Positions 34,136-57,495 of a DNA stretch of 64,000 bases are shown here, one piece after another. Positions within the stretch are counted from its first letter, which is position 1, and each line of letters opens with the position of its first letter. Source of the stretch: Peterkaempfera bronchialis (GTDB lineage Bacteria; Actinomycetota; Actinomycetes; Streptomycetales; Streptomycetaceae); the NCBI RefSeq assembly GCF_003258605.2, contig NZ_CP031264.1, positions 930,001 to 994,000 on the forward strand, written 5' to 3'. The notes under the pieces are model-generated. The model searched no databases. It was given only the letters and a program-made list of their open reading frames with translations, and had not been told where the DNA came from. The position numbers and the translations under genes are program-made.

Positions 34136-34753
34136 TCGCCGAGGCGGCCGCGGAGGACGACGATGTTCAGCTTGGCAAGGACGCACGTCTACTGCTGAAC
34201 TCTCCGCTTACGGACACGGTGATTCAGGCCGTCTGGTTGGCAGCTGCACGACGACGCTTCGACCCGGTGGAAGAGGGTGCGGACATGCGTCTGTGGTTGC
34301 GCGGCATCTTGGAAATTTGCCCGTCTCGGACGTGTACCTCACATGTGGGCGTCACCCTTGAGATCCCAGATCAGCTGGACCGCCTACGCCGAACCCGACC
34401 GCCTCCTGGCACGGCACCCGGAGGACTACCGGCTGGGCCAGACCTGGTGTCACCGGTGAAGGGCGTACTGCGCGGCTACCGGGACCTGGACGGCCGCCGG
34501 CGGTCTCGCTCGAACGGCACGCCCACGAGGTGGACAAGGTACTCCTGCGCGACCTTGGCACGCTGCGTCGGCTGAACGGACTGAACCGAATTCGGCAATG
34601 CGCACGCGACGCGCGGCGGCGAAGACGCCCCGGTTCTCGCAGTTTGAGATTCTGGCAGTTGGGCTCGACCGGGCGTCACGTCCCATGATTGGGTGGTCCG
34701 GGTCACATCTCTCATTCGCGCAATTCCTGACTATTGGATTGTTGGGATCACTC
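34136..34753. other. Decayed sequence before the biosynthetic cluster
   Basis: Contains scraps of coding-like sequence on the plus strand (for example VSLERHAHEVDKVLLRDLG near 34.5 kb) with no intact gene, then a more AT-rich stretch (34.69-34.75 kb) that likely holds the promoter of the SDR gene. Confidence 0.45.
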
Positions 34754-37711: not shown

Positions 37712-37722
37712 GCTGGTACTCC

Positions 37723-38541: not shown

Positions 38542-41500
38542 GGCCGGGCCCCGCCTTGGCACCCGCCGCCTTCGCCGCCACCAGCCGGTCGACCTCCGCC
38601 GAGATCGAACGTGTGGTGGCGTCGGCAAACATCGCCCGCAGCCGGATCTTCACCCCGAACTCCTTGCCGATACGGCTGACGACCCGCATCGCCTGCAGCG
38701 AATTGCCGCCGGCCGCGAAGAACGCCACCGCCGCGCTCACCCGCTCGACCTCCAGCACCTCGGCGTAGATCCGCGCGACCGCCTGCTCCGTCGGCCCCTG
38801 CGGGGCGACGTAGTCCTCCTCGGGGTCGGCCTCGACCGGGTCCGGCAGGGCCTTGCGGTCCACCTTCCGTGCCGTGGTGAGCGGCAGACTGTCCAGCACC
38901 ACCCACGCGGTCGGGATCATGTACTCGGGCAGCCGCTCGGCCAGGTGGGCGCGCAGTTCGGCCGCGTCCGGAACGCGGTCGCCGGCCGGCGACGCGTAGC
39001 CGACCAGGCGCTTCTCACCGCGCCGGTCCTGCCGCAGCGCCACCGCGCCGACACCCACGTCCGGGTGCGACATCAGCGCGGACTCGATCTCCTCCAGCTC
39101 GATGCGCAGGCCCCGCAGCTTCACCTGGCCGTCGCCGCGACCGAGGAACTCCAGCTGGTAGTCGCGGTTCCAGCGGACGAGGTCGCCGCTTCGGTAGACC
39201 CGGCCGCCGGGGTGGAACGGGTCCTCGGTGAACGCCGCGGCGGTCAGGTCCGGCCGGTTGAGGTAGCCGCGGGCGAGGCCCTCCGCACCGCCGATGAGCA
39301 GTTCCCCGGCGATACCGCGGGGGACGAGCCGGTCGGCCTTGTCGACCACGTACATGCGGCGGTCGGTGAACGGGGCGCCGATCGGCGGCGCGCTGCGGGC
39401 CGGCTCGTGGGGGCACTCGTAGGAGGTGCAGCCGACCGCGGCTTCGGTGGGCCCGTAGCAGTTGATCAGCCGACGCCCCGGCAGGTTCCACTTGGCGACC
39501 ATCTCGGCCGGAACCGCCTCGCCGCCCGCCATGATCTTCCGCAGCTTGGGGTAGGGTCCGCCCTCGACCAGTGCGAGCATCGCCGGCGACATGCAGATGT
39601 AGGTGACCTCCCGCGCCCGCATGAGCGCCGCGAGCGCGTCGGGCGAGGTGCCGGCCTCCTTGTCGACCAGGACCAGGGCCGCCCCGGCGGTGAGGCCGGC
39701 GAAGATCTCGCCCTGCGACATGTCGAAGGCCAGCGCGGCCAGCTGGAGCATCCGGTCATCCGGCTGGAGGTCGAACACACGCCGGTAGGAGGCGATGAAC
39801 GACTGGAGCGCCCGGTGTTCGAGGAGAACTCCCTTGGGCTGGCCGGTCGAGCCGGAGGTGTAGATGACATAGGCGAGCGAGTCGCGGCCGGCCTCCTCGG
39901 CCCAGCCCTCGGACTCGGCTCCCGCCTTGGCGATGGCCCCCCGCTCCTGGTCGACCTCGACGATCGACCAGTCCGCCGACTCGGGTATGCGCTCGCGCAC
40001 CCGGCGCTGGGTCAGCACGATCGGCGCCGCGGTGTCCTTGAGGATGTACTCGAGTCGGCCCACCGGGTGCGAGGGGTCCAGGACTGCGTACGCCGCCCCG
40101 GACTTCAGCACGCCGAGCAGCGCGACGAGCGCGTCCAGGTCGCGCTCCATCGCCACCCCGACGACCTGCCCGTGCCGCACCCCCCGGTCGCGCAGGAAGG
40201 CGGCGAGCTCGAACGCCCGGCGCTCCAGCTGCTGGTAGGTCAGGCTCTCGCCCTCGTACATCGCGGCGATGCGGTCCGGCTGCTCCAGCGCGCGCCGGGC
40301 GATTGCGGCGTGCACCGGCTCGTCCGCGTGGGAGAGCATCTCGCCGATCCCGGCGGCGAAGAGCTCCTGGGCCTCCGTGTCGTCGAGCAGCGTCAGCTGC
40401 GACACCCGCTGGGCGGGGTCCGCGCAGGCCGCCCTCAGCACCTGTGCCAGATGCCGGACGAGTGCCTCGATCCGCCAGCCGTCGAAGAGGTCCGCAGCGT
40501 ATTCGACACCCACCTGGAGCCGGTCGGCCGACTCCACGAAGGTCAGCGCCAGGTCGAAGCGTGCACCGAGCGACGGGAGGTCGACCGCTTCCGTGGTCAG
40601 CCCCGGGAGGTCCATCGTCGTGCCGGAGGTCTGCTCGGTCAGGAACTGGGCGCAGACGCCGAACAACGGGTTGCGGCCGGGATCGCGGTGCGGCCGAAGC
40701 CGGTCGACGACCCGTTCGAAGGGCACGTCCTGGTTGTCGTAGGCGTCGAGCAGGACGTCGGAGAGCCGGGACAGCAGTTCGTCGAAGGCGGGATCGTCCT
40801 GGAGGCCGGCCCGGAGTACCACCATGTTGGTGAAGTACCCGACCACCTCTTCGAGATCCGGATCGGTCCGACCGAGCGCAGCGGTGCCGAGCGAGACGTC
40901 CTGCTGGCCGGTGTACCGGCCCAGGACCACGGTCAGCGCGGCGGTCAGGACCATGAACAGCGACGCGCCTTCGGCCTCGGCGAGCGCGCGCGCCGCCACC
41001 AGCAGGTCCGGCGGCAGCTCGCTCCGCGTGGTGCCGGCGGCGAAGCTCGGTTCGGCCGGGCGCGGCCGGTCGGCCGGCAGCTCCAGCGGCGTGACGCCAT
41101 CCAGCTGCTCCTGCCAGTAGCCGAGTTGCTCTTCCAGGCCGCCGTTGTCGAGAGCGGCGCGCTGCTCGGCGGCGAAGTCCGCGAAGCGGACCGGCGGCGG
41201 GGCGTCCGCCGCCCGGTCACCTGCCCCGCCGGCCGGTCCGTCGCCCCGGAGCGCCGCGGCGTAGCCGTCCTGGAGCTGCCTGAGCAGCAGGCTGGTCGAC
41301 CAGCCGTCGGTGACGAGGTGGTGGAAGACGAGCGACAGCACATGCTCGTCCGCCGAGAGACGGAACAGCCTGAACCGGTACAGCGGGCCGCGCACCAGGT
41401 CGAAGGACTGGCGGACGTGCTCCTGGAGCTCCTTCGCGAGCTGGGCCTCGCGGGCTTCGGGGGTTGCGTCGGTCAGGTGGCCGACCGGCAGGTCCACCGC

Positions 41501-41734
41501 CGACGGCGGGGTGAACACCATCCCCGGCGTCCCGTCCACCGTGGACACCGTTCCACGCAGCGACTCGTGCCGCCGCACGAGCTCGGTCAGTGCCGCGGCG
41601 AGCGCCGTGCCGTCCAGCGGCCCGCGAATCCGGTGGGCGACCGCGACGTTGTACGTCGCGAGCCCGGGAGTCAACTGCTCCAGGAACCAGAGCTGCTCCT
41701 GCCCGACCGACAGCGGCACCTGTTCCGACGCCAT
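38531..41734 (-). CDS. Nonribosomal peptide synthetase, C-A-T, 1067 aa
   Basis: Single NRPS module. Condensation domain (about 1-430) keeps HHLVTDGWS; adenylation domain (about 470-960) has YTSGSTGQPKGV, NCYGPTEAAVG, YRSGDLVRW and the terminal catalytic Lys in ARKVDRKALP; the carrier domain has FFAAGGNSLQAMR with the phosphopantetheine Ser. Pocket residues read by eye as D-M-G-C-M-G-C-V-G-K do not match a code I can assign. The ATG at 41734 begins MASEQVPLS. Beginning with a C domain, the module needs an upstream donor, plausibly the stand-alone A-T protein at 48.1 kb. Heads the minus-strand operon NRPS, TE, MFS. Confidence 0.93.
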   Translation of the reverse strand: MASEQVPLSVGQEQLWFLEQLTPGLATYNVAVAHRIRGPLDGTALAAALTELVRRHESLRGTVSTVDGTPGMVFTPPSAVDLPVGHLTDATPEAREAQLAKELQEHVRQSFDLVRGPLYRFRLFRLSADEHVLSLVFHHLVTDGWSTSLLLRQLQDGYAAALRGDGPAGGAGDRAADAPPPVRFADFAAEQRAALDNGGLEEQLGYWQEQLDGVTPLELPADRPRPAEPSFAAGTTRSELPPDLLVAARALAEAEGASLFMVLTAALTVVLGRYTGQQDVSLGTAALGRTDPDLEEVVGYFTNMVVLRAGLQDDPAFDELLSRLSDVLLDAYDNQDVPFERVVDRLRPHRDPGRNPLFGVCAQFLTEQTSGTTMDLPGLTTEAVDLPSLGARFDLALTFVESADRLQVGVEYAADLFDGWRIEALVRHLAQVLRAACADPAQRVSQLTLLDDTEAQELFAAGIGEMLSHADEPVHAAIARRALEQPDRIAAMYEGESLTYQQLERRAFELAAFLRDRGVRHGQVVGVAMERDLDALVALLGVLKSGAAYAVLDPSHPVGRLEYILKDTAAPIVLTQRRVRERIPESADWSIVEVDQERGAIAKAGAESEGWAEEAGRDSLAYVIYTSGSTGQPKGVLLEHRALQSFIASYRRVFDLQPDDRMLQLAALAFDMSQGEIFAGLTAGAALVLVDKEAGTSPDALAALMRAREVTYICMSPAMLALVEGGPYPKLRKIMAGGEAVPAEMVAKWNLPGRRLINCYGPTEAAVGCTSYECPHEPARSAPPIGAPFTDRRMYVVDKADRLVPRGIAGELLIGGAEGLARGYLNRPDLTAAAFTEDPFHPGGRVYRSGDLVRWNRDYQLEFLGRGDGQVKLRGLRIELEEIESALMSHPDVGVGAVALRQDRRGEKRLVGYASPAGDRVPDAAELRAHLAERLPEYMIPTAWVVLDSLPLTTARKVDRKALPDPVEADPEEDYVAPQGPTEQAVARIYAEVLEVERVSAAVAFFAAGGNSLQAMRVVSRIGKEFGVKIRLRAMFADATTRSISAEVDRLVAAKAAGAKAGPGRVG

Positions 41735-41944
41735 CGAACCCTGATCAACGACCACTGCGCCCGCTCCAAACCGGTGAGAACCCGACACCCCTGTCAGCCT
41801 TCCGGATCCACCGTGCCGCCTCCCGGCAGCCACGTCTTGTACGTTCTTGACATGCAGAGCGGTCCGGTGCGGATTTCTCCGACGGGGCGTCAAACGGCCT
41901 AGCATGCCTGCGTAATCTTGCGGACACCGGGAACGGAGCGAACG
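41735..41944. promoter_or_regulatory. Divergent promoter region between NRPS and LeuRS-like gene
   Basis: 210 bp separating divergent starts. A TTGACA at 41847-41852 followed 18 bases later by GGATTT is a candidate promoter towards the LeuRS-like gene. Bidirectional control of both arms from here is likely. No T-box or tRNA-binding specifier structure could be recognised. Confidence 0.45.
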
Positions 41945-43459
41945 TTGACGACCAAGGTCCTGACGATCGGCGCACCAGTCGACGACCTGCACGAGCGGCG
42001 GCTGAAAGCGGTCGCCGCAGCCAGCGCCAGGCTCGGTGTGCTGACCGGAGCCCCGGCGCCGGGGACGTCCACCACCGCGATCGAACTGCTGCGTACGCTG
42101 GCATCCGCCGGCCGGATCGCGGTGAGCGCGGAGGACGACGCGGCCGGGCCGTGGACGCTGTCCTACGTGCCTTCGGCGGCCGCGCTGGCCGCGGTGGCCG
42201 GGGGCAGTGCGCCCTCCTGGGGGGCGCGGGTGGACGCCAAGCAGCAGAAGGCGCTGCGCCGGAGCCGGGGGGCGGTGATCCGGCTGCCCTTCGCCGATCC
42301 CGCGACCGGCGAGGCGAGCGGCGACTCCCTGAGCACCTTCACCACCGACTGGTCGCCCTTCACCGCCGCCTGCGCGGTCGTGGTGCACCCCGACCACGTG
42401 GCGCTGGCCGCCACCGAGGTGCGGCAGCGCCCGTACTTCAGCGGACGCTTCGTGCGCCACCCGCTCCACGGCGACCTGCTGCCCGTCTGGGTCGCCGACT
42501 GGGCCAAGCCCGAGTTCGGCACCGGCGCCGTGATCGTCAACCCGGCGCACTCGGTCGCCGACCTGGAGTTCGCGCGCGCCATCGGGCTGCCGATCCGCTT
42601 CGGCCTCGGCGAGCAGGAGCCCGGCGCCGACCCGGAGACCTGGCTGACGCCGCCGGTCATCAAGACGGGAGTCGCGGTGCGGGCCGGTCGGCGGCACGAC
42701 GGCCGGCCCCACGAGGAGGCGATGCAGGCGTACCTTGAGGACCTGCTGGCGTCCGGGTACGGCGAGTGGGCCGAGTCCGTGTCGCTGGGCCGGGCACCGC
42801 TCGCGGTGCTGAGCGCCGACCCGGCCGGCGAGGTGCGCTGGGCGCCCGCGCTACGGGCCCGCAGCCTCACCGAGGGGGTGGACGGGGCCGCGGCCGTGTC
42901 CGTGTCGATCGACCCCGCGCCGCTGCTCGCCTCGGCCGCCGAATACACGGTGGGGCGGGCGACCCTGGTCGCCTCGTCGGAGGCGGTCACGGCCGATCTG
43001 CTGTGGCTGCGCCTGCTGATGCTGGACATCGCGGTCGAGCACCCGCCGGTCGCGGTGGTGCCGGTGGCCCGGGTCGGCTCAGCCCAGAGCGTCGAGTCGC
43101 AGTGGCTGGACGGTGCGCTGCTGGTGGCGGGTCGGACGGATGAGACCGTGTCGGTCAAGGCCCAGCTCAGCGAGCAGATCGGGCGTATCGCGGGTGATCA
43201 CGCGGCGGCGGCCGCCGCCGCCGGAGAGCCGGAGCCCGCAGCGTCCAAGACCGCTGCGAAGATCTGTGAGGCGCTCTCCGCCGCCGACTTCCCGACCGCC
43301 TTCGGCACGGCCACCGCCGTCGCGAAGACGGTGCGGCGCGGGGGCGCGCTCGGGGCGTCGGAGCGCACCGCGTTCCTCGCCGCCCTGCATGTGCTCTTCG
43401 GGCTCCCGCTGCCCGAAGGCTTCTCCGCAGCCACGCTGGACGGCTCGTTCCGGAAGTGA
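41945..43459 (+). CDS. Leucyl-tRNA synthetase editing-domain-like protein without catalytic motifs, 504 aa
   Basis: Resembles the class I LeuRS CP1 editing domain and the sequence after it. Residues 129-140 (SLSTFTTDWSPFT) align with the threonine-rich TTRPDT editing motif, and 180-215 (PVWVADWAKPEFGTGAVI, then NPAHSVADLEFARAIGLPI) with LeuRS PVWIADYV-GTGAVM-VPAHDxRDxEFA. The Asp used to bind the amino acid amine (E. coli D345 position) is kept at 206, while the first Asp is Ser and the specificity Thr is changed. HIGH and KMSKS are absent, so no aminoacylation is expected. TTG 41945 follows GGAACGGAG. Likely a trans-editing, self-protection or tRNA-handling protein for the cluster; this role is inference. 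Confidence 0.8.
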   Translation: MTTKVLTIGAPVDDLHERRLKAVAAASARLGVLTGAPAPGTSTTAIELLRTLASAGRIAVSAEDDAAGPWTLSYVPSAAALAAVAGGSAPSWGARVDAKQQKALRRSRGAVIRLPFADPATGEASGDSLSTFTTDWSPFTAACAVVVHPDHVALAATEVRQRPYFSGRFVRHPLHGDLLPVWVADWAKPEFGTGAVIVNPAHSVADLEFARAIGLPIRFGLGEQEPGADPETWLTPPVIKTGVAVRAGRRHDGRPHEEAMQAYLEDLLASGYGEWAESVSLGRAPLAVLSADPAGEVRWAPALRARSLTEGVDGAAAVSVSIDPAPLLASAAEYTVGRATLVASSEAVTADLLWLRLLMLDIAVEHPPVAVVPVARVGSAQSVESQWLDGALLVAGRTDETVSVKAQLSEQIGRIAGDHAAAAAAAGEPEPAASKTAAKICEALSAADFPTAFGTATAVAKTVRRGGALGASERTAFLAALHVLFGLPLPEGFSAATLDGSFRK

Positions 43460-43566: not shown

Positions 43567-45039
43567 CTACCGGCCGGAGACCCGGTCCATAACCTCCTCG
43601 CCCGCCGGGTTGCGCTTCGCGCTGATCCGCTTCTGGTGCGGGTCGGTGATCATGACCTGCGGAAGGACTCCTGTCTGCGCGGACATGTCCGCGAACGGCG
43701 ACCACAGCGGGCCGTCGTGCAGAGCCTGCAGATCGGTCGTGCTCAGTCCGCTGATCCGCTCCAGACGGGCGGCGAGCGCGCGGTCCACGGAGCCGGCCAG
43801 GAGCGCTCGGATCCGGTCCTCGGCCTCCAGCAGCTCGGGATGCTCCCCGGCAAGGAACTCGTGCAGGTTGGCCGCTCGTCCCGCGAAGGGGGAGTACACC
43901 ATGCAGATCAGCTGCGTGGTGTCGAGCCCGAAGGCATCCTCGCCGTACCGGGTCGCCGCCTCACGCATGGACTCGACACCGGCCTCGGTGGCGTAGCGCT
44001 GCCGCATCTCCTCGACCAGGTGCTCCGGGAAGTGCTTGCGGCGCATCAGTTCCAGGGCGAAGTCGACATACTGGCCGATGCCCTCCTGGTAGGAGCGCTT
44101 GTACACCCGCTCGGTCCGCAGCCCGCGCAGGTGGGCCATGAGCGCGGGGTTCACGCAGTCGGACTCGGTGAAGTTGAACGCGATCTCGTCGAAGACGAAG
44201 CCGAGGAAGCCCGTCAGGAGACTCCAGTGCGCCCCCGAGGCGTAGCTCGTGTAGTCGTAGATGGAGTAGAACTGGAGCGCGGTGGAGATGTCCGAGGCCA
44301 CCCCACGCGCTTCGATCCGCTCCGCGTTCTCCGAGCCGTGGATCTCCTGGAAGTACGCCCTCGCCAGCCCGTTGAGCGTCTCCAGCGTGCCCTGGAAGCC
44401 CTTCTTGCTGTCGGCAGGCTTCAGACCGGCACTCCGCGCCAGCTGCCGAATCCACAGGGCGTAGTCGCGCTGCTCCTGGGGAGAGTCCCCGGTGATGATC
44501 AGGTCCACGCCCTCGCCGTGGCCGGCGGCCACACCGAAGGAGTCCGCCACGTTCAGGTTGCACGCGTTGCAGAACGTGGCCCGGCCGTCGCCGTAGGTGC
44601 GGTGCCCGGACATCAGCATGTCGACCCGGTTGAAGTCGATCAGCCGGTGGGGCATGCTCCGGTCCCGGGCGAAGGGGCGGACCTGGCCGCCCTCGATCAG
44701 CAGCAGCTCGGCATCCGGATCGCCGTAGAGCCCCAGCGCCTGGTACGTGCGGTCGATGTTCTGCATCACCTGGTACGGCATGCCGCCGTGCCGCATGGTC
44801 GCCACCCGCAACCGGAAGGTCTCGCCGTGCCGTTCGGCGAGGGCCAGGTGGACTGCGCGCACAAAGGCCAGCGCATAGGAGCTGTCCTTGCCGCCGCCAT
44901 AGGCGACCATCACCGTGTTCCGCCCGAGCTCGCCCGGTCGCGGCAGCGCCTTGAGCAGCGTCGTCGCGCACTCCTCGACCGCCGGCACATCCCGCTCCGG
45001 GAGCGCCTTCCGCAAGTCGTCAAGAATAGCCGTGCTCAT
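43567..45039 (-). CDS. PP-loop ATP pyrophosphatase-family protein with CxxC, 490 aa
   Basis: Adenine nucleotide alpha-hydrolase fold. PP-loop is VAYGGGKDSSY (residues 45-55), and CNAC at 157-160 with LIITGDSPQEQRDY resembles the catalytic-cysteine region of PP-loop tRNA thiolases and N-type ATP pyrophosphatases. The C-terminal 250 residues have no domain I recognise. Such enzymes adenylate a carbonyl or base so that sulfide or ammonia can be added. No sulfur-carrier gene is seen nearby, so amidation is as likely as thiolation. ATG 45039 follows GGAGGGATGTC. It faces the LeuRS-like gene. Confidence 0.8.
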   Translation of the reverse strand: MSTAILDDLRKALPERDVPAVEECATTLLKALPRPGELGRNTVMVAYGGGKDSSYALAFVRAVHLALAERHGETFRLRVATMRHGGMPYQVMQNIDRTYQALGLYGDPDAELLLIEGGQVRPFARDRSMPHRLIDFNRVDMLMSGHRTYGDGRATFCNACNLNVADSFGVAAGHGEGVDLIITGDSPQEQRDYALWIRQLARSAGLKPADSKKGFQGTLETLNGLARAYFQEIHGSENAERIEARGVASDISTALQFYSIYDYTSYASGAHWSLLTGFLGFVFDEIAFNFTESDCVNPALMAHLRGLRTERVYKRSYQEGIGQYVDFALELMRRKHFPEHLVEEMRQRYATEAGVESMREAATRYGEDAFGLDTTQLICMVYSPFAGRAANLHEFLAGEHPELLEAEDRIRALLAGSVDRALAARLERISGLSTTDLQALHDGPLWSPFADMSAQTGVLPQVMITDPHQKRISAKRNPAGEEVMDRVSGR

Positions 45040-46164: not shown

Positions 46165-47193
46165 TTGTCTACTGCACCCGCCCCGCTGTTCGAGCCGCTG
46201 ACGAGCGAGATTCTTGACGCCACCCTGCGTGATGGTTCCTATGCCGTCGACTTCCAACTCGACCAGAAGTTCGTCATCGAACTCCTAGGCCGACTGAACG
46301 AGACACCGATCGAGAAGGTGGAGATCGGCCACGGCCTCGGTTTCGAGGCCGAGCGTTCCGGTATCAGAGCCTGCAACATCGACCTGTCCCGGTGGTGCGA
46401 GATCGCACGTTCGGAACTGTCGGAGACCTCCTGGGGGATGTTCGCGCAGCCCGGTTTCAGCCGGCTCGGCACACTGGAGGAACTCTGCAGCCAGGGCATG
46501 TCGTTCGTCCGCATCGGTATGGAAGCCGATCGGGTTCCCGAGCACCTCGACTACATCGAGCGCGCCACCGAGATCTGCGGGCAGGTCTACCTCAACCTCA
46601 TGAAGACGAGCGCCACACCTGCCCAGCAGCTGCCCGAGCTGCTGAGCGGAGTCACCCCGGCCGTTGCCGGGCTGTACGTCGTGGACTCCTACGGCTCGAT
46701 GCTGCCCAGCGACGTGCACCGTTATGTGGAGGTCGCCAAGGAGTGCTTCCCGGTCGTCGGGTTCCACGGCCACGACAACCTCGGCATGGCGAACGCCAAC
46801 AGCATCGCCGCGCTTGAGGCGGGCGCCACCATCGTCGACGGAACGCTCGACGGCATCGGCCGGGGCGCCGGCAACGCGGAGACCGAGTCGCTGGCCGGCA
46901 TCCTCAGCCTCATCGGCAACGACAAGTACGACTACAAGCGACTGGCCCGGCTCGCGGAGTTCTGCCGGACCAACCTGGAACTGCTGCCGGAGAACCGGAA
47001 CATGCAGGTCCTCGGTGGAGTGATCGGAATTCACTCCGGATACTTCCCGCTCATCGAGGAACTCTGCGCCGAGCTCACCGTCGACCCGGCCCCCCTGATG
47101 GAGACCGCCGTCGACCTGGCCTCGCAGAGCGTCGGCAAGAGCCACATCCACGCTGCGGCGCAGCGGATCTCCCAGGGCCTCGCGGCGGTCTAG
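46165..47193 (+). CDS. DRE-TIM metallolyase (4-hydroxy-2-oxoacid aldolase/HMGL-like), 342 aa
   Basis: TIM-barrel carbon-carbon lyase or synthase. Metal-binding DATLRDG is at residues 18-24 and GFHGHDNLG with metal His201 and His203 near 200, followed by GATIVDGTLDGIGRGAGNAETE as in 4-hydroxy-2-oxovalerate aldolases. The residue after RDG that is His in DmpG/BphI (general base) is Tyr here (RDGSYAV), so the exact reaction is open: pyruvate aldolase, or acyl-CoA-type synthase. TTG 46165 has GGAGGA upstream. Opens the plus-strand operon and probably builds an unusual 2-oxo acid. Confidence 0.85.
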   Translation: MSTAPAPLFEPLTSEILDATLRDGSYAVDFQLDQKFVIELLGRLNETPIEKVEIGHGLGFEAERSGIRACNIDLSRWCEIARSELSETSWGMFAQPGFSRLGTLEELCSQGMSFVRIGMEADRVPEHLDYIERATEICGQVYLNLMKTSATPAQQLPELLSGVTPAVAGLYVVDSYGSMLPSDVHRYVEVAKECFPVVGFHGHDNLGMANANSIAALEAGATIVDGTLDGIGRGAGNAETESLAGILSLIGNDKYDYKRLARLAEFCRTNLELLPENRNMQVLGGVIGIHSGYFPLIEELCAELTVDPAPLMETAVDLASQSVGKSHIHAAAQRISQGLAAV

Positions 47194-47227
47194 CGAGCCC
47201 TTCGATCAGTCTTAGGAGGAGGAAAAC

Positions 47228-48064
47228 GTGAGAATCGCACGATTCGATGCCGGCAGCGGATACCAGATCCACGCGGGTCAGGACGGCAGTTGGGCGCCGC
47301 TCTCGGCATTCGAAGGGTACAAGGCTCCCACCCGGATCGCGGATCTGCTGGACGATGCCCGGAGAAGCGAACTCGCCGCGCTGCTCGCCTCCCGGTCGGT
47401 CGAGCGGCTGACCGATGTTCGGCTCGACGGGGCTGCGACCATAGCCGACGGCGGCGACATCTGGGGCGCCGGCCTGAACTACCGGGGCCATTCGGAGGAT
47501 CTGAACACCCAGCAGCCGGCCTCCGGCCCCGGATCGTACCTGAGGCCCAGCAGCTGCCTGATCGGCAACGGGCAGCAGATCAACCTGCCGTCCCAGAGCA
47601 AGAGGGTGACCGCGGAGGCCGAACTCGGTCTCGTCATCGGCTCGGAATGCAAGAACGTGTCGCGCGCGGACTGGCGCTCGGTCGTCGTGGGTGTCACCGC
47701 CGTGCTCGACATGACCGCAGAGGACGTGATCCGCGAGAATCCGCGGTACATCCCGTGGGCCAAGGGGTTCGACACGTTCTGCAGCATCGGGCCGCAGCTG
47801 GTGACGCTGGACGAGTTCGACGATGCGGCTCTCCAGGGGATTCGGGTGTCGACCGTCCGCAACGGTGAGGTCATCTCCTCCGCCCTGGTGTCCGCCATGA
47901 AGTACGACCTGGGTTATCTGGTCGAGTACTTCACGGCCGGGCGGACCCTGGTACCCGGAACCGTGATCTGCACGGGAACCCCGGGAGCCGCTGTGATCAG
48001 CCCCGGGGACTCGATCAAGGCCGTCGTCGAGGGTGTGGGAACGCTCGTCCACACCGTGGGGTAG
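47228..48064 (+). CDS. Fumarylacetoacetate hydrolase-family enzyme, 278 aa
   Basis: FAH superfamily (hydratases, hydrolases, decarboxylases of 2-oxo acids). The core is AEAELGLVIG with the metal Glu, DMTAEDVIRENPRYIPWAKGFDTFCSIGP and TGTPGAAVISPGDSI. An N-terminal arm of 75 residues precedes. Together with the aldolase it resembles the last two steps of meta-cleavage pathways (hydratase plus aldolase), possibly run in the synthetic direction to make an unsaturated 2-oxo acid. AGGAGGAGG sits eight bases before the GTG. Confidence 0.88.
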   Translation: MRIARFDAGSGYQIHAGQDGSWAPLSAFEGYKAPTRIADLLDDARRSELAALLASRSVERLTDVRLDGAATIADGGDIWGAGLNYRGHSEDLNTQQPASGPGSYLRPSSCLIGNGQQINLPSQSKRVTAEAELGLVIGSECKNVSRADWRSVVVGVTAVLDMTAEDVIRENPRYIPWAKGFDTFCSIGPQLVTLDEFDDAALQGIRVSTVRNGEVISSALVSAMKYDLGYLVEYFTAGRTLVPGTVICTGTPGAAVISPGDSIKAVVEGVGTLVHTVG

Positions 48065-48097: not shown

Positions 48098-49816
48098 TTG
48101 ACTGTGCAGCAGATATCAGTAGTGGACGCGATCCAGCGCGCCGTTCAGGACCATCCCCACTGCACCGCCATCGAGACCTCCGACGGCTCCATCACCTATC
48201 GGGAGTTCGGCGAGTACACCCGCGATTTCACCTCGCGACTCGAATCGCTCACCGCTCCGGGTGAGTTCATCGGAATCGAGGCCATCCGCACCTCGGGTTC
48301 GATCGTCGCCATGGTCGGCGCGCTGGCCGCCAGACGGCCGTTCGTGTTCATCGACCCGCGCGACAGCGAGTCGTCGAACAGGAGCAAGGTGTCCTCGCTC
48401 GGTATCAACGTGGTCGCGAGCAGCCGCGACGCGCCGCACGCGCCACGGCTCGCCGCGCCGCCGGCCGAGTGGCGGGACGGCGCGGGAGACCGGCCCCTGG
48501 CGGATCTGGCCGAATACCAGGGAACGCTCGGCTACGCGATCCACACCTCGGGTTCGACCGGAGAGCCCAAGTGCGTCCTGGTGCGCGCGGAACCGCTGGT
48601 GCCCATGGTCCGGGACCATGTGCGACGTCTGGAGCTGGACCCGCAGTGCCGCACGCTGCAGTTCGCCCGCCTGACCTTCGACGGGTGCATAACCGAGATT
48701 CTGTGGACCCTGACCTCGGGCGCCTGCCTGGTGATCCTGGGCGAGGAGCACCTCAGCCCGGGAACGGTGCTCCAGCGGACGTTGGAGGACTTCCGCATCA
48801 CCCATCTGAAGACGACGCCGTTCGCGCTGACGTCCACTCAGCCGAGCGATGCGATGACCCTGAAGCATGTGATCAACGGTGGCGGCGCCTGCCGGCAGGC
48901 CGTGCTCCGGAAGTGGTCGTCGGCAGCGGCCTTCCACAACGCCTACGGGCTGACCGAGACCACCGTCTGCAACTTCCTCAGCGACCCGCTGGACCCGGAC
49001 GACTGCCGGGAGTCCATCCCGCTCGGCGACGTGGTGGGCGACTGCGGGTTCGATGTCGTCCCGTTGCCGACGGCCACGGCGGACGGTGCCGCCGGATCGC
49101 CGGTGACCCGTGGTGAACTCGTCATCACCGGCAACAGCGTCGCGGTGGGCTACCTGACCGCGCAGGGCGTGCAGCGCTTCATCGACGACAACGCGGACCG
49201 GGTCTACCGGACCGGCGACATCGTCGACCACCACGACGGGCAGGTCTTCTTCGTCGAGCGGCTGGATCGGCAGCTCAAGGTCCGCGGCTACCGCCTGGAC
49301 CCGGGTGAGGTCGAGAGCGCGGCCTGCCGCCTCGACGGGGTCGTGGAGGCGGTCGTCTCCGCCGAGTCGCACGAGAACGGTGACGACTCCGCCGTCGATG
49401 CCCTGGTGTGCTACTACCTGGGCACCGCCACCTCCCGGGAGGTGCGCGCCCACCTGGAGGCGGTCCTCGACTCCTACAAGGTCCCTTCGGTGATCCAGCA
49501 GATCGAGGCGATCCCCTACACGCGGAACGGCAAGGTCGACCGCGAGGCGCTCCGGGCGAGCCGCCGCACCGCTCCGGCTGCGGCCCGGGCCGCCACACCG
49601 GAGGAGCAGATCCTCGAACTGGTACGTCAGCTCACCGGAGTGGACGACGCCGGCCTCGACGACAACTTCTTCGACGTCGGCGGCGATTCGGCCTCCACGG
49701 TGATCCTGGTCAACAAGCTGAAGGAACTCGGCTGGATGGCTGTCGGCGTCCGGGACGTCCTCCGGGCGGAGAATCTGAAGGTTCTCGTCGACGAACTACG
49801 TGATCGGAGTGCTTGA
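48098..49816 (+). CDS. Stand-alone NRPS A-T didomain, 572 aa
   Basis: Adenylation domain plus carrier domain. Visible: HTSGSTGEPKCVLV (A3), FDGCITEILW (A4), NAYGLTETTVCN (A5), YRTGDIVD, RLDRQLKVRGYRLDPGEVE and NGKVDREAL with the catalytic Lys, then FFDVGGDSASTV in the carrier. Pocket residues read by eye D-G-T-K-I-G-A-V-C-K share T-K-I-G with Asn/Asp-activating codes, suggesting an Asn, Asp or related substrate (tentative). TTG 48098 chosen; GTG 48104 possible. Would load the donor for the C-A-T module across the cluster. Confidence 0.92.
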   Translation: MTVQQISVVDAIQRAVQDHPHCTAIETSDGSITYREFGEYTRDFTSRLESLTAPGEFIGIEAIRTSGSIVAMVGALAARRPFVFIDPRDSESSNRSKVSSLGINVVASSRDAPHAPRLAAPPAEWRDGAGDRPLADLAEYQGTLGYAIHTSGSTGEPKCVLVRAEPLVPMVRDHVRRLELDPQCRTLQFARLTFDGCITEILWTLTSGACLVILGEEHLSPGTVLQRTLEDFRITHLKTTPFALTSTQPSDAMTLKHVINGGGACRQAVLRKWSSAAAFHNAYGLTETTVCNFLSDPLDPDDCRESIPLGDVVGDCGFDVVPLPTATADGAAGSPVTRGELVITGNSVAVGYLTAQGVQRFIDDNADRVYRTGDIVDHHDGQVFFVERLDRQLKVRGYRLDPGEVESAACRLDGVVEAVVSAESHENGDDSAVDALVCYYLGTATSREVRAHLEAVLDSYKVPSVIQQIEAIPYTRNGKVDREALRASRRTAPAAARAATPEEQILELVRQLTGVDDAGLDDNFFDVGGDSASTVILVNKLKELGWMAVGVRDVLRAENLKVLVDELRDRSA

Positions 49817-49821
49817 TCGCG

Positions 49822-51594
49822 ATGTGTGGCGTATGCGGGACCTATTCTCCGAACGGTCAGGTGGATCGCAGCATCGCGGCTGCCATGCACAACCGGCTGG
49901 TCCATCGCGGACCTGACGAGACCTACTCACTGAACACCGAAACAGTCTCCGTAAAGCTCGGCCGCCTCGGCATGACGGGCCTGGTCGACGGCTGGCAGCC
50001 CGCCGAGGACCGCAGCGGCCGGTACGTGGCCATGACGAACGGCGAGGTGTACAACGCCAAGGCCCTCCGCGAGAAGGTGGGTTCCGACCGGCAGCGGAAC
50101 GCCGTCGATGTGGCTGTCATCCCGGAGCTGGTGTCCCGGTACGGAATCCAGGGACTGGGCCTGGTCGACGGGCAGTTCGCGACCGTCGTCTTCGACCGTG
50201 CCGAGAACTCGCTGATCCTGGCCAGGGACCGGTTCGGCATCTGCCCGCTGTACTACACGGTGGCCGGCTCCGACATTCACTTCTGCTCGGAGCTCAAACC
50301 GCTGGTGCAGTGCGTCGACCAGCCCTGGAAGGTGGACATCGGCGCTGTCGACCAGTACTTCTCGCTGGGGAACATCGTCGCGCCACGGACCCTGGTGAAG
50401 GGCGTGCACGCCGTTCCCCCCGGCTGCGCCGTCCGGTTCGGTCCGGACCGGCAGGAGACCGTACGCTACTGGCGCTACGGCCAGTTCGTTCCCGCCCCGG
50501 AACCGGTCTCCGAGGAGGCGCTCAGGGAGGGTCTGCAGTCCTCCGTCCGGGACCGCCTGCATGCCGATGTGGAGATCGGCGCCTATCTGAGCGGGGGATT
50601 CGACTCCACTGCGATCCTGATGGAATCGGCCGCGCTGCTCGACCGGCCGGTCCGGACCTTCTCCGTCGTGTTCGACGATCCGTCGCTGGACGAGGGGCGC
50701 TTCCAGCGGGAGGTGGCGGAGCAGGTCGGCAGCAAGCACGAGCAGATCCTGTGCCGGCCCACCGACATCGCGTCGCGGTTCGAGGAGATGGTCCGGCACT
50801 GCTGCTATCCGCAACGCGAGACCTACAATGTGGCCGCCATGATGCTCGCGGACACGGTGCGGTCCTTCGGCGTCAAGGGGGTCGTCTCCGGCGAGGGAGC
50901 GGACGAGCTGTTCTTCGGCTACGACTCCTATGCCTTCGACAGCGCGACCCGATCCACCCGGAGCTCCTGCGCGGAGAACGAGCAGGCCTGGGGCCGGGCG
51001 GACTTCAGCTGGGAGGTCGACTGGCGAAAGGTGAGCCGGCGGCGGGAGCACCTTGCCTCGGCGGCACATGAGGCGCTGGTGGGCGAGGAGTTCTGGCGCA
51101 CCAGGCTGATTCCGTTCTCCGAGGACGAGGTCAAGCTGCTCTCATCGATGCAGCTGCGCTCGATCTCCGATGTGTACGTCCAGCTGGCGGGCCATCTTCT
51201 GGGCGACCACGGCGACGCGATGGTCATGAAGAGCTCGATCGAGGGCCGCTACCCGTTCCTCGGGAACTCGGTGGTCTCCCTCGCTCTGCAGACCGGCGAC
51301 AGTGCGAAGGTGGTCGACTTCGAGGGCAAGGCGTGCCTCAAGTCGGCCTACCAGGGAGTCGTCCCGGAATCCGTTCTGCGGCGTGGCAAGCACGGGTTTA
51401 CCGCGTACGACCTGCGGTCGGTCGTCGATGAGCGGACATGGGAGGGCTGGCGGGGCCTGGTCGAGGCCAGTGGGGTCTTCGCCCCCGGCTGCCTCGACAC
51501 GGCGCCTGGTCAGGGTGGTGCGGACAAGTGGGACTTCAGGCTCAGCCTGATCAGCATCGCCATGGTCATGGATGAGCTGGCACTCGGGCTCTGA
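49822..51594 (+). CDS. Asparagine synthetase (glutamine-hydrolysing)-like amidotransferase, 590 aa
   Basis: AsnB family. The N-terminal Ntn glutaminase begins MCGVCG, with Cys2 as nucleophile after Met removal, which fixes the ATG at 49822 over a TTG three codons earlier; HRGPDE and TNGEVYN are standard. The synthetase domain has PP-loop YLSGGFDST and SGEGADELFFGYD. Expected to turn a carboxylate into an amide using glutamine and ATP, or to form an intramolecular amide as in carbapenam/beta-lactam synthetases. Starts 5 bp after the A-T stop, so it is in the same operon. Confidence 0.92.
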   Translation: MCGVCGTYSPNGQVDRSIAAAMHNRLVHRGPDETYSLNTETVSVKLGRLGMTGLVDGWQPAEDRSGRYVAMTNGEVYNAKALREKVGSDRQRNAVDVAVIPELVSRYGIQGLGLVDGQFATVVFDRAENSLILARDRFGICPLYYTVAGSDIHFCSELKPLVQCVDQPWKVDIGAVDQYFSLGNIVAPRTLVKGVHAVPPGCAVRFGPDRQETVRYWRYGQFVPAPEPVSEEALREGLQSSVRDRLHADVEIGAYLSGGFDSTAILMESAALLDRPVRTFSVVFDDPSLDEGRFQREVAEQVGSKHEQILCRPTDIASRFEEMVRHCCYPQRETYNVAAMMLADTVRSFGVKGVVSGEGADELFFGYDSYAFDSATRSTRSSCAENEQAWGRADFSWEVDWRKVSRRREHLASAAHEALVGEEFWRTRLIPFSEDEVKLLSSMQLRSISDVYVQLAGHLLGDHGDAMVMKSSIEGRYPFLGNSVVSLALQTGDSAKVVDFEGKACLKSAYQGVVPESVLRRGKHGFTAYDLRSVVDERTWEGWRGLVEASGVFAPGCLDTAPGQGGADKWDFRLSLISIAMVMDELALGL

Positions 51595-51642: not shown

Positions 51643-52338
51643 GTGAGTCCCGACAGTCCGAGCATCGTCGTCTTTCCGGGTGCCGGATCCTTCGGCACCG
51701 AACTCCGCGGACTGCTGGCAGAGTTGGGGCCGTCAGCCTGGCTCGCACGGTATCCGGGACGATTCGGCAGGGATTTCGGCCAGGGCGCGGGAACCTTCCA
51801 GGAGGTCGTGCGGTCCTGCGTCGCCCAGGTAGAGCGCCGCCGGCCGTCCCGGGCCGTCCTCGTCGGGCACAGCTTCGGCGCGTACGCGGCCCATGCCACG
51901 GCGAGGGAACTGGAGGAGCTGGGGACGGTGGTCTCCGCGCTGGTGGTGGTCGGCGCCACCGCACCGGCTCTGCTGACGGTGCCGGAGCCGCCCACTCTGC
52001 GACGGTCGGACACCGTCGCCTACCTCGAAGGCATCGATCCCGACCTCCTACCGGACGAGGCCGACGAGTGGCGGGAGATCGTCATCGACACCACGATGCA
52101 GGACCTCCGACTGCTCAGGGAGTTCACCACATCGCAGGTCCGAGAGGTGCGCTGTCCGATCCTCGCGGTGCGCGGTGCGGCGGATCCGCTGGCGTCCACC
52201 AGCGGAATCGGCGCGTGGGCCGACGCCACTTCCGGCGGATGCACTCGCGAGGAGTTCCCGGGCGGTCACTCGGATCTGCTGCGCACGCCCGAATTCGCCT
52301 CGTGGCTGCGCGAGGCATGCCTGCACTCGTACGCGTGA
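51643..52338 (+). CDS. Type II thioesterase, 231 aa
   Basis: Alpha/beta hydrolase of the editing TEII family that frees mis-primed carrier proteins. FPGAGSFGTELRGL at the N-terminus, nucleophile elbow VLVGHSFGAYAAH, and the His motif FPGGHSDLL near the end. AGGAGGAGG precedes the GTG. Normal length for the family. Confidence 0.9.
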   Translation: MSPDSPSIVVFPGAGSFGTELRGLLAELGPSAWLARYPGRFGRDFGQGAGTFQEVVRSCVAQVERRRPSRAVLVGHSFGAYAAHATARELEELGTVVSALVVVGATAPALLTVPEPPTLRRSDTVAYLEGIDPDLLPDEADEWREIVIDTTMQDLRLLREFTTSQVREVRCPILAVRGAADPLASTSGIGAWADATSGGCTREEFPGGHSDLLRTPEFASWLREACLHSYA

Positions 52339-52544: not shown

Positions 52545-54029
52545 ATGGGCAAGCACGCCATCATCGTCGGCGGCGGAGCCAGCGGGGTGACCCTGTTCAC
52601 CCTGCTGGCAACCACCCCCGGAATCAGCTCCATCACGGTGGTCGACCCCAATCCGATCGGGCTGGGAACGGCCTTCGGCACCACCGATCCGCTGCTGCTC
52701 TGCAACACCTCCGTCGACGTCACCTCGATCAAGCCCACCGGCGAGTCCGATCTGCTGAGGTATCTCGCCGCGCGCGGCTGGCCGGTACACCGTGACCACT
52801 TCGTCCCCCGCTACCTCGTCGGCCAGTACTGCCGCGAGCGGTATCTGACATACCGCCGGACCGCCGAGCAGGCGGGAACCCGGGTCCGGCACCACCGCGC
52901 GCGAGGCACCGCCGTCCGCCCTCACGACGACGGCGGCTACACCGTCGTGCTCGACGACGGAGCGCAGCTCGTCGGCACCGATGTCTTCCTCTGCCTCGGC
53001 CTCGACCAGCCGGTCGTCCCCGAACTGGTACGCGCGCACGTCGGCCATCCGGACCTCACCACCGTGCCGTACCCCGTGGGGCGGCTGCGTCGGCTGCCGG
53101 CCGCCGCGCGGATCCTGGTGCTCGGCAGCAAGCTCACGGCGATCGACGCGGCGCTCGTCCTGGGACAGCGGGGGCGGCGTGTGGTTCTCACCTCGCCCTC
53201 CGGACAGCTGCCTGCGGTCCGGAGCCGACTCAGCCGGCCCGCCAGCCCGGTACTCGACCCGGGCTCCTGGCGACGGCTCGCACCGGAGTCCCCGGACTTC
53301 GACCGCGAGGCGGCCCGCCTGGTGGTCTCCGCGGTGGCCCGGGCCGGATCGGGAGCCGCGCTGCGTGCCCAGACGAGCGCAGCGGCCGCGCCGGCCGACC
53401 GGCTGGCCGAGGAGCTGCGCCTCGCGGAGTCCGGCCAGGTTCCCTGGCAGGACGCGATTGCCGAGATCATCGACGCGATCAACGACAGCACGGCGTCCTG
53501 GCCTGCGGACACGCGCAGGGCAGTGCTCGGACGGTACCGGCACCTGATCTCGCGCTACATCTCATCCATTCCGGTCCGGAACGCCCGGCTGCTGCTCGAA
53601 CAGCTCACCGGGGGAACGCTGGCGATCGTCCCGCGGCTGCCGGAGGGCATCACCCCGGCCAAGGCCGGTACCGGGTGGCTGGTCCGGTGGGCGGACGACC
53701 GTACCGAGCACATCGACCACATCGTCTGCGCGGCCGGCTACCACAAGCCGACTCTGCGGCAGCTCCCTGATCGCACCCTGCTGCTCCACTCCGATCCGGC
53801 CCTCGCTTCGGCCGGCGCCGAGCCGGAGGTCTCGGCCGGCCTCAGGGTGTGCGATCCGCGGTCCGGTGCACCCGAGCGGGTCTGGGTGCTCGGTGCCACC
53901 TCGCACCCTCGGGCCGCCATCGTCAACTACCTGAACACCGCGGCTCGTCAGGCGACCGGCATCGCCACCGACCTGCTCTGGGCCGCGCACGACGTGCCCG
54001 CCCCCACCGTCAGCGGAAGGCTCGCATGA
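52545..54029 (+). CDS. FAD/NAD(P)-binding oxidoreductase, 494 aa
   Basis: Two-dinucleotide flavoprotein (NAD_binding_9-like). FAD motif AIIVGGGASGVTLFTLL near residue 5; VDPNPIGLGTAFG follows; a second Rossmann motif ARILVLGSKLTAIDAALVL (around 190) with RGRRV should bind NAD(P)H; late DHIVCAAGYHKP resembles the ATG-type motif of flavin monooxygenases. Probably oxidises or reduces a cluster intermediate. The ATG at 52545 is the start; its stop overlaps the next gene. Confidence 0.85.
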   Translation: MGKHAIIVGGGASGVTLFTLLATTPGISSITVVDPNPIGLGTAFGTTDPLLLCNTSVDVTSIKPTGESDLLRYLAARGWPVHRDHFVPRYLVGQYCRERYLTYRRTAEQAGTRVRHHRARGTAVRPHDDGGYTVVLDDGAQLVGTDVFLCLGLDQPVVPELVRAHVGHPDLTTVPYPVGRLRRLPAAARILVLGSKLTAIDAALVLGQRGRRVVLTSPSGQLPAVRSRLSRPASPVLDPGSWRRLAPESPDFDREAARLVVSAVARAGSGAALRAQTSAAAAPADRLAEELRLAESGQVPWQDAIAEIIDAINDSTASWPADTRRAVLGRYRHLISRYISSIPVRNARLLLEQLTGGTLAIVPRLPEGITPAKAGTGWLVRWADDRTEHIDHIVCAAGYHKPTLRQLPDRTLLLHSDPALASAGAEPEVSAGLRVCDPRSGAPERVWVLGATSHPRAAIVNYLNTAARQATGIATDLLWAAHDVPAPTVSGRLA

Positions 54030-55258
54030 TGTTCGTCCTCGTCAATCCCGTCTCCACCGGCAAGGCGCTGGCCACGGCATTCCGGGAGGAGGGCGCGGAG
54101 TGCCTGCACCTGTACGACGCGTCGCTGCGGCACGCGTACGACGCGGACAGCTCCCCGCACACCATGGTGCACGAGGACCTCGCCAAGACCCTCGGGGTGC
54201 TGAAGGGCCTGCGCCCGACCGCCGTCATCGCCGCGAGCGAGTACGGCGTCCTGCTCGCCGACGCGCTTGCCGCGAAGCTTGGGCTGCCGCACCACCGGCC
54301 CGAGCAGGCCGCGGCCCGCCGCGACAAGGAGCTGATGGTCCGGGCCCTGGAGCAGGCCGGTGTGCCCGCCGCGCGCACCGGCTCGGTACGCGACGAAGCC
54401 GAGCTGATCGAACTGCTCGCCCGGTGGGGCGGCCATCCCGTGATGGTCAAGCCGCGCGACAGCGCCGGAAGTGACGGCTGCACCATCTCCCCGGACCGGG
54501 AGACGGCCCTGGCGGCCTTCCGGGCGATCGTCGACCGGCGGAACCTGATGGGCGAGGTCAACCATGACGTCCTCGTCCAGGAGTTCCTGACCGGCACCCA
54601 GTACATCGTGAACACCGTGAGCATCGGTGGCCGCCACCTGGTGAGCGAGGTGTACGCGGAGCGCATCGACCACATCGACGGCGCCCCGGTGCTGCGCCAC
54701 ATCATCTCCCGCCCGCAGCTCGACGCGGCGGAGGCGGAGCTGGTCGCCTATGTGCTGAAGTGCCTTGACGCACTGGGCATCCAGGAGGGGGCCGCGCATA
54801 CGGAGGTCATGCTCACCCCTGCCGGACCGCGCCTGGTCGAGGTCAACTCCCGTGTCATGGGCCCCTCGCTGGCGCCTGACCCGTACCATGCGGCCTTCGG
54901 GTACAGCCACCAGCATCTCGTCGTGGAGCGCTTCCTCCGCCCCGAGGAGTTCGCGCTCCGTCTCGAACTGCCCTACACGGCGGCCCGGACGGTCGCCAAG
55001 GTCTTCCTCCGCTCCGACCGTCCGGGGGTGCTGCTGGCCGTGGACGGCGCGCGCATCCTGCGCCGCCTGCCCGGCTTCCACAGCATCGACCGGCTGCCCG
55101 CGATCGGGCAGCCCATCCTCGACCGGTACCTCACCACCGGAGCCAGCGGCATCGCCTACCTGGTCCACGAGGACAAGCACCTACTGCTGAACTCGCTCGG
55201 CGTCATCCATGACCTCGAGGACAGCGGAGCCCTCTACCGCCTCGCCGAACAGAGCTGA
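54026..55258 (+). CDS. ATP-grasp ligase, 410 aa (L-amino acid ligase-like)
   Basis: ATP-grasp fold enzyme that activates a carboxylate as acyl phosphate and joins it to an amine. Lid-region VMVKPRDSAGSDGC and Mg-binding EVNSRVMGPS are clear, and the N-terminal Rossmann-like half with AASEYGVLLADALAAKLGLPH is typical of BacD/DdaF-type dipeptide ligases. ATG 54026 (or 54029) overlaps the FAD gene stop. Likely forms an amide bond in the product. Confidence 0.88.
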   Translation: MMFVLVNPVSTGKALATAFREEGAECLHLYDASLRHAYDADSSPHTMVHEDLAKTLGVLKGLRPTAVIAASEYGVLLADALAAKLGLPHHRPEQAAARRDKELMVRALEQAGVPAARTGSVRDEAELIELLARWGGHPVMVKPRDSAGSDGCTISPDRETALAAFRAIVDRRNLMGEVNHDVLVQEFLTGTQYIVNTVSIGGRHLVSEVYAERIDHIDGAPVLRHIISRPQLDAAEAELVAYVLKCLDALGIQEGAAHTEVMLTPAGPRLVEVNSRVMGPSLAPDPYHAAFGYSHQHLVVERFLRPEEFALRLELPYTAARTVAKVFLRSDRPGVLLAVDGARILRRLPGFHSIDRLPAIGQPILDRYLTTGASGIAYLVHEDKHLLLNSLGVIHDLEDSGALYRLAEQS

Positions 55259-55264
55259 TCCTCG

Positions 55265-56272
55265 TTGCCGATCGCACTCATCGCCCTCTCCGTCCTGCTC
55301 CAGGCCGGGACCGAGGGCTTCCTCTCCGGCCGACTCGACCCGGCCGGCAGCCTGCTCTTCTCCTGTCTGGCGTTCCTCACCACCGCGGTGGTGTTCGCGC
55401 TGACCTCCGTACTGCGCGGCATCCACCGGGGAGCGCTCGGGAACCGTGAGGTCAGACGGCTGCTGTACCAGATGAACCTGGCGAGCGCGCTGACCTTCCT
55501 GGGCTACTTCCTGGCGCTGGCCTGGGTGCCCGCCGCACTGGCCGCGAGCCTCATGGCCGGCGTCGGCCCGCTCGCCGTCGCCGTCCTCGGCATGGGCCGG
55601 GGGTCCGGCGGCCCGGGACGCGCAGGTTGGCTGCGGGCGGGCGCGCTGCTGGCGGTGTCGCTGGCGGTCGCCGCCTGCACCCGCTCCGGCGGGCCGTCGG
55701 CGAGCGCGCCCGCGGTCCTCGGGGGCGGTGTGCTGGCCGTGCTCTCCGGCGTCGGTGCGGCCCATCTGGCCACCATTTCACGGAGGTTGGGCGCCCTCGA
55801 AGTGGACCCGATCGTGGTGACGGCCCACCGTTTCCACCTCACCTATCTGCTGGCCGGCGTGCTACTGGTGGCCCATGGAGGTCCGACGGGCCACGGGCTG
55901 TCGCTCGGGACAGCCGCGACGGCGGCGGTGGCGGGGGTGGTCGTCCCGCTGTATCTGCTTCAGATCGGCGCGCAGCGCTGCCCCCCGGCGATCACCATGG
56001 TGCTGCTCACCACCCTTCCCGGGCTGACGTACCTGGCGCAGGTGCTGTTCGGTGACCGGTTCAGGGCGCTGAGCGCGGTGCTGATCGCGGCGCTGGTGGC
56101 ACTCGCCGCGCTGTTCACCCGGATCGAGGCGCGGCCCCGGCGATCCCCCGCCGCAACCACTGCCGCAACCACTCCCGCAACCACTCCCGCAACCACGACA
56201 GAAGGAGACCGCGATGCCGACCGTGCTGGTGATCGGGGGCGCGGCGCCGAGGGAGTCCGGCTTCGTCCGTGA
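55265..56272 (+). CDS. EamA/DMT-family transporter, 335 aa
   Basis: Drug/metabolite transporter with about ten hydrophobic segments in two EamA halves (YFLALAWVPAALAASLMAGVG and PLYLLQIGAQRCPPAITMVLL mark the repeat ends). Candidate exporter of the product or importer of a precursor. TTG 55265 is six bases after the previous stop. The tail after LFTRIEARP is a Thr/Ala/Pro repeat encoded by 12-bp units and overlaps the next gene by 59 bases, so the last 40 residues are probably dispensable. Confidence 0.85.
   Translation: MPIALIALSVLLQAGTEGFLSGRLDPAGSLLFSCLAFLTTAVVFALTSVLRGIHRGALGNREVRRLLYQMNLASALTFLGYFLALAWVPAALAASLMAGVGPLAVAVLGMGRGSGGPGRAGWLRAGALLAVSLAVAACTRSGGPSASAPAVLGGGVLAVLSGVGAAHLATISRRLGALEVDPIVVTAHRFHLTYLLAGVLLVAHGGPTGHGLSLGTAATAAVAGVVVPLYLLQIGAQRCPPAITMVLLTTLPGLTYLAQVLFGDRFRALSAVLIAALVALAALFTRIEARPRRSPAATTAATTPATTPATTTEGDRDADRAGDRGRGAEGVRLRP
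56151..56198. repeat. Four tandem 12-bp units CCGCAACCACTC
   Basis: Units at 56151, 56163, 56175 and 56187 with one or two changes; they encode the ATTP-type tail of the EamA protein and end just before the ribosome site of the next gene. Confidence 0.85.
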
Positions 56273-57443: not shown

Positions 57444-57458
57444 GTCCACACCGGCCGC

Positions 57459-57488
57459 TTGCCCGACTGTTCCGCGGATTCCTAGGCT
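57459..57488 (+). promoter_or_regulatory. Probable promoter TTGCCC-N18-TAGGCT, leaderless
   Basis: -10 TAGGCT at 57483-57488 is seven bases before the nitrilase ATG, the spacing of leaderless streptomycete transcripts; no ribosome site is visible before this ATG. Confidence 0.5.
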
Positions 57489-57495
57489 CGGTGTC

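Follow-up and report, generated by a model that had tools for sequence, protein, structure and literature searches.

Aldolases of the 4-hydroxy-2-oxovalerate (HOA) type have so far been studied as degradation enzymes and as biocatalysts. In BphI, the acceptor chain is directed at Leu89 and the stereochemistry at C4 is governed by Tyr290 (PMC3962088). Biosynthetic use of such aldolases already has precedents: going by the title cited in PMC3146816, an enzyme of this kind, SanM, is run in synthesis for nikkomycin, and in ketomemicin clusters an aldolase is teamed with dehydratase, dehydrogenase and ATP-grasp ligase enzymes (PMC11943689). Here, we studied an aldolase gene (ALD) and a gene for an FAH-fold enzyme (FAH) within a 64,000-nt stretch of DNA (hereafter, the window) that spans positions 930001-994000 of a 7.09-Mb single-contig genome. 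A first-pass annotation had read this pair as the hydratase/aldolase end of a meta-cleavage pathway put to biosynthetic use.

Both ORFs were confirmed at the coordinates and on the strand listed in Table 1. They have a strong codon-position GC bias (third-position GC of 0.87 for ALD and 0.86 for FAH) and score far above the relevant Pfam cutoffs (ALD, 94.9 bits to HMGL-like, cutoff 29; FAH, 159.4 bits to FAA_hydrolase, cutoff 23.9); ALD starts with TTG at 46165, with GGAGGA a few bases 5'. Separated by 34 bp, and with 33 bp between the FAH stop and the A-PCP start, the two genes head a tight co-directional run on the plus strand, and so open an operon as had been annotated; the biosynthetic locus itself reaches upstream of ALD to ~34.6 kb. 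The presence of a thioesterase and two ATP-grasp ligases in the operon, with an NRPS and exporters nearby, indicates biosynthesis, not catabolism. With the A-PCP and amidotransferase genes, this context makes a biosynthetic role of the locus well supported, in agreement with what had been claimed for the pair. The accompanying statement that ring-cleavage genes are missing holds for PF00903 (extradiol-dioxygenase-type), the one family searched for, which has no gene within the window; nor does the window contain an acetaldehyde dehydrogenase gene (TIGR03215). Elsewhere in the same genome, 243 kb from the pair, an FAH-fold hydratase-like gene, an acetaldehyde dehydrogenase and an HOA aldolase lie together (G000:C1:1219400-1221900; 1.219-1.222 Mb). 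The aldolase of this trio scores 339 bits to TIGR03217 (cutoff 286) and belongs to a His21/Phe291 group, and the dehydrogenase beside this true HOA aldolase, at 1.22 Mb, is the sole copy found in the genome. Thus, the trio already covers the catabolic function.

Table 1. Genes of the biosynthetic locus, in window coordinates
Feature	Coordinates	Strand	Details
ALD, class II (metal) aldolase, HOA/DmpG lineage, Tyr/Lys/His subfamily	46165..47193	+	R22, D23, Y26, F93, Q95, N144, K147, H201, H203, H290
FAH, FAH-fold enzyme, HpaG/FAHD1-type	47228..48064	+	metal ligands E130, E132, D161; lid His88; Asp91; no variation in 15 relatives
Stand-alone adenylation domain and carrier protein (A-PCP)	48098..49816	+	10-letter code DGTKIGAVCK; D235 present, amino-acid type
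Asparagine-synthase-type Gln amidotransferase	49813..51594	+	MCG N-terminal Cys and SGGFDS; TIGR01536 315 bits, cutoff 267
Type II thioesterase	51643..52338	+	Pfam
FAD/NAD(P)-binding protein (NAD_binding_9)	52545..54029	+	Pfam
ATP-grasp ligase 1, dapdiamide-synthase-like (DdaF-like)	53849..55258	+	true start probably 3' of overlap
EamA-type exporter	55265..56272	+	Pfam
ATP-grasp L-amino-acid ligase 2 (LAL_C2)	56214..57443	+	Pfam
Carbon-nitrogen hydrolase	57346..58461	+	
PP-loop ATP-pyrophosphatase-like protein	43567..45039	-	YGGGKDS, CNAC; listed ORF to 45162, conserved start near 45039
Free-standing leucyl-tRNA synthetase (LeuRS) CP1 editing-domain protein	41918..43459	+	
NRPS module C-A-PCP	38531..41740	-	listed ORF to 42712; C domain from residue 330
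MFS exporter	36407..38296	-	orthologue in L021
AraC-type regulator	35625..36533	+	76% to L021
SDR reductase, SxxxR replacing YxxxK	34598..35527	+	orthologues adjoin ALD/FAH also in loci without A-PCP

A genome-collection scan returned 40 loci. The order ALD-FAH-A-PCP-amidotransferase, usually with the thioesterase next, recurs across phyla in ~20 further genomes, actinomycete ones as well as Desulfoluna butyratoxydans (L034) and Pseudoalteromonas (L037), and ALD and FAH adjoin on the same strand, with matched-end gaps of 37 to 345 bp, in 22 of the locus records with an A-PCP gene, two of which are one and the same place. Within the window's own family, a close aldolase occurs in 5 of 298 genomes. 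The PP-loop, LeuRS-editing-like, NRPS, MFS, AraC and SDR genes are also together in Sphaerimonospora mesophila (L021), at ~76-89% identity. One set of loci carries the PP-loop protein and, in most cases, the SDR; a second adds a further adenylation protein and a P450 (L024-L030 and G234, and partly L035), L024-L030 and G234 also having a permease; and a third (G057, G200, L038 and L039) has ALD and FAH, and the SDR in three of the four, without the A-PCP/amidotransferase block. Because the third set does without this block, ALD, FAH and often the SDR look like an older unit. We did not find a cluster with this gene set, or this aldolase subfamily, described in the literature, which, given limited coverage, is weak evidence of novelty. 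Separately, the cluster L013 (G057) was seen to combine ALD and FAH with an ATP-grasp ligase, two each of aminotransferases and Fe(II) oxygenases, a PF04199 cyclase and a QueC homologue.

ALD belongs to the HOA/DmpG lineage of metal-dependent aldolases. Its profile scored 206-221 bits with HOA aldolases in the PDB and at most 92 bits with LeuA/homocitrate synthases; its predicted model (pLDDT 87.6) matched 4lrt and 1nvm at Z 33 over 322-328 residues, C-terminal domain included, and synthases at 27 or less; and in a tree the 22 operon aldolases formed a single clade (100/100), separate from both the HOA clade and the CoA synthases. Grouping with acyl-CoA-dependent synthases, raised at first as a counter-indication, was not seen by profile, fold or tree, and the original call of an aldolase, of HOA and not LeuA/HMGL lineage, stands. 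The same three lines set ALD apart from the acyl-CoA-dependent synthases (LeuA, homocitrate, citramalate) and from HMG-CoA lyase. With 130 bits to TIGR03217 (4-hydroxy-2-oxovalerate aldolase), ALD does not reach the curated cutoff of 286, and by this NCBI equivalog measure would not be classed as an HOA aldolase.

The active site of this subfamily was compared in DmpG numbering by aligning 34 members (22 from operons and 12 other) with 21 HOA or near-HOA comparators. Some of these sequences are related to each other, and the counts should not be read as independent events. All 34 members have Tyr21, His291, Lys142 and Asn139 (Tyr26, His290, Lys147 and Asn144 of ALD), where DmpG has His21, Tyr291, Met142 and Phe139. 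The 13 HOA comparators have His21, Tyr291, Met or Leu at 142, and Phe139, and the 8 near-HOA comparators have His21, Phe291, Met142, and Val or Leu at 139. The first-pass annotation had pointed to Tyr where DmpG and BphI use His; this Tyr proved invariant in the subfamily. It is accompanied by the converse change, Tyr to His, and by a Lys at 142 that the comparators lack; two catalytic residues seem to have traded positions. Arg17, His200, His202 and Asn204 are kept in 34 of 34, with Asp, or in a few cases Glu, at position 18; the metal/pyruvate site of DmpG (Arg17, Asp18, His200 and His202) is present in ALD as R22, D23, H201 and H203. The position of BphI Leu89 is taken by Gln in all 22 operon aldolases (Gln95 in ALD) and in no other sequence aligned, which led us to propose a polar acceptor; the 12 other members have Ile or Met there. 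Lys147 falls directly C-terminal to strand 140-146 of the predicted model, and the C-terminal ends of TIM-barrel strands form the catalytic face. We considered whether this residue might correspond to the carbamylated Lys of pyruvate carboxylase and discarded the idea, since by count the two fall on different strands. Relatives with the same Tyr/Lys/His marks (L040, L041, L045 and L053), one of them from a Micrarchaeota genome bin, adjoin genes for AMP-ligases, NeuB, a PF04199 cyclase or Antibiotic_NAT.

In the SDR, SxxxR replaces the canonical YxxxK in 12 of 12 orthologous proteins, which are 74-84% identical in nine operon records and 41-65% identical in three loci where the SDR adjoins ALD/FAH and A-PCP is absent; this motif may indicate reduction of C=C rather than C=O, and the solved relatives that share it (1o5i and 5vps) are annotated merely as reductases. 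The A-PCP code, DGTK[IVL]GA[VI]CK, is identical in 22 of 22 loci save for I/V/L and V/I exchanges; with such uniformity, the substrate is probably one and the same in all of them, and D235 suggests that it is an amino acid. T239 and K278 of the code are reminiscent of published Asp/Asn codes. The amidotransferase has SGGFDS in all aligned rows; the window protein has the N-terminal Cys motif, as do those rows in which a simple motif search caught it.

Building on both established enzyme lineages, the recurrent ALD-FAH-A/PCP-amidotransferase order and the invariant active-site changes, we tentatively propose, at a little short of an even chance, that ALD and FAH begin the pathway of a conserved biosynthetic sub-operon, which proceeds by aldol extension, water loss by FAH, SDR reduction where present, loading, amidation, peptide formation and export. 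ALD would deprotonate pyruvate (or a closely related 2-oxo acid) bound to the metal, and the addition of this donor to an aldehyde of polar or anionic character would give a 4-hydroxy-2-oxo acid, with Tyr26/His290 standing in for the His21/Tyr291 pair of DmpG and with Lys147 and Gln95 binding the polar end of the acceptor. Pyruvate plus an aldehyde is a plausible pair of substrates. FAH would then carry out a metal-assisted enolisation of the 2-oxo acid, most likely with water loss to a 2-oxo-3-enoate, which the SDR, where present, would reduce. Transamination by a host enzyme would yield an acidic amino acid to be loaded on the A-PCP, amidated there by the Asn-synthase-type enzyme and released, and the ATP-grasp ligases and/or the NRPS would join it into a short peptide for export. 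Counting against this pathway, the operon has no aminotransferase, and within the locus DNA examined an SDR orthologue is missing from roughly half of the related loci (L024-L031, L033, L035 and others). Judged from sequence, the pair, often with the SDR, most likely builds an amino-acid precursor from a polar aldehyde and pyruvate.

FAH has no dehydratase among its nearest characterised kin, a set of hydrolases, isomerases and decarboxylases, and this counts against the water-loss step. Its best matches in NCBIfam and the PDB are HpaG, maleylpyruvate hydrolase, diketo-deoxyrhamnonate hydrolase and FAHD1, and no MhpD/HpaH-type hydratase chain was recognised among its 26 PDB matches. FAH is thus assigned by similarity to the HpaG/FAHD1/maleylpyruvate-hydrolase group and not to the meta-cleavage hydratase type. 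With the DmpF-type dehydrogenase missing as well, and a genuine trio elsewhere in the genome, the meta-cleavage reading is not supported; the analogy holds solely for the ancestry of ALD. In 15 relatives the metal ligands (EXE...D) and lid His88 are invariant, and Asp91 is found in 15 of 15 where 4pfz and 1gtt have Glu (H+3), the Glu of the catalytic dyad, which in FAHD1 is His30-Glu33 (PMC8398924). FAH may be a plain acylpyruvase, the other counter-indication raised at first, although the whole clade has Asp in place of the FAHD1 catalytic Glu. An unlikely, if serious, contender keeps the synthetic aldolase and makes FAH a tautomerase or decarboxylase (as are HpaG, FAHD1 and YcgM), which would shorten the aldol product or isomerise it without forming a 2-oxo-3-enoate. 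The best profile matches, including HpaG as an isomerase/decarboxylase, and the conserved metal site and lid His agree with this; however, the replacement of the dyad Glu by Asp in every relative suggests that the reaction may have shifted, and a real dehydratase, 2-keto-3-deoxy-D-arabinonate dehydratase (69 bits), is among the FAH-fold matches. For the proposed pathway, we infer dehydration by FAH.

A further alternative concerns the aldolase. Relatives outside such operons (L040-L046 and L053) lie, where examined, in sugar or acyl-transfer loci, and the subfamily may therefore perform something besides the classic pyruvate aldol reaction. Were its reaction another enolate chemistry (with another donor or a ketone acceptor, or decarboxylative or retro-aldol), pyruvate plus aldehyde would be wrong; we consider this rather improbable. 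Catalytic residues are altered in every member, ALD at 130 bits is well under the HOA equivalog cutoff of 286, and members occur in sugar and nonulosonate loci beside AMP-ligases, NeuB, a PF04199 cyclase and acetyltransferase-like genes, but Arg17, Asp/Glu18, His200, His202 and Asn204, the pyruvate- and metal-binding region of DmpG, are kept in all.

A more specific version of the proposed aldol pathway draws in a gene upstream of the operon. The free-standing CP1 editing-domain protein matches LeuRS in the PDB at 2.8e-12, retains the residue aligned with the editing Asp, and is conserved beside the operon in L019, L021, L023, L034 (Desulfoluna), L036, L018 and L010; possibly, it serves in trans-editing self-protection. 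In this version, the aldolase with its exchanged Tyr/His and new Lys, followed by dehydration and reduction, would supply a novel amino acid with an extended and amidated chain that mimics leucine or norvaline, and the editing-domain protein would protect the producer by clearing tRNA charged with this mimic; we hold the combination to be quite improbable. The PP-loop protein, which carries a CNAC motif, has relatives at 58-62% identity in Pseudoalteromonas and Desulfoluna; it matched no Pfam family and, by sequence, no solved structure, and its model (pLDDT 70.6) gave weak fold matches to PP-loop enzymes (E 3.6e-3 and worse). Finally, named FAH homologues are mostly catabolic and HOA aldolases usually run in the cleaving direction, but with acetaldehyde dehydrogenase absent nearby and ALD and FAH leading a biosynthetic operon in ~20 species, it is very doubtful that the pair degrades a precursor or shunt product, feeding pyruvate or an aldehyde into the pathway.

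The conserved ALD-FAH-A/PCP-amidotransferase block points to an uncharacterised amino-acid-type metabolite in ~20 species. The aldolase subfamily would be a source of aldolases for polar acceptors and, as a widespread sister group found in bacteria and one archaeal genome bin whose catalytic pair is reciprocally changed, would offer a natural test of base/acid placement in the fold.

Among known systems, DmpG/BphI (TIGR03217) share with ALD the full-length fold, the metal ligands, Arg17 and the C-terminal domain, whereas ALD differs in Tyr21, His291, Lys142, Asn139 and Gln at BphI Leu89, has no dehydrogenase partner and lies far under the equivalog cutoff. The HpaG/FAHD1/maleylpyruvate hydrolase group provides the best sequence matches to FAH and shares its metal site and lid His; in contrast, FAH and its relatives all have Asp for the catalytic Glu, and the FAH operon is biosynthetic. 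Dapdiamide-type ATP-grasp dipeptide clusters resemble the operon in the DdaF-like ligase and include an A-PCP protein too; we know of no aldolase/FAH pair in them. SanM, by description likewise an aldolase of such kind that helps to build a peptide antibiotic precursor, works together with SanN, and a block of FAH, A-PCP and amidotransferase genes does not figure in that description. The ketomemicin cluster (ktmA-F), unlike the operon, has a PLP C-acyltransferase and an amidinotransferase, and by description resembles it in that its aldolase works in synthesis jointly with dehydratase, dehydrogenase and ATP-grasp ligase partners.
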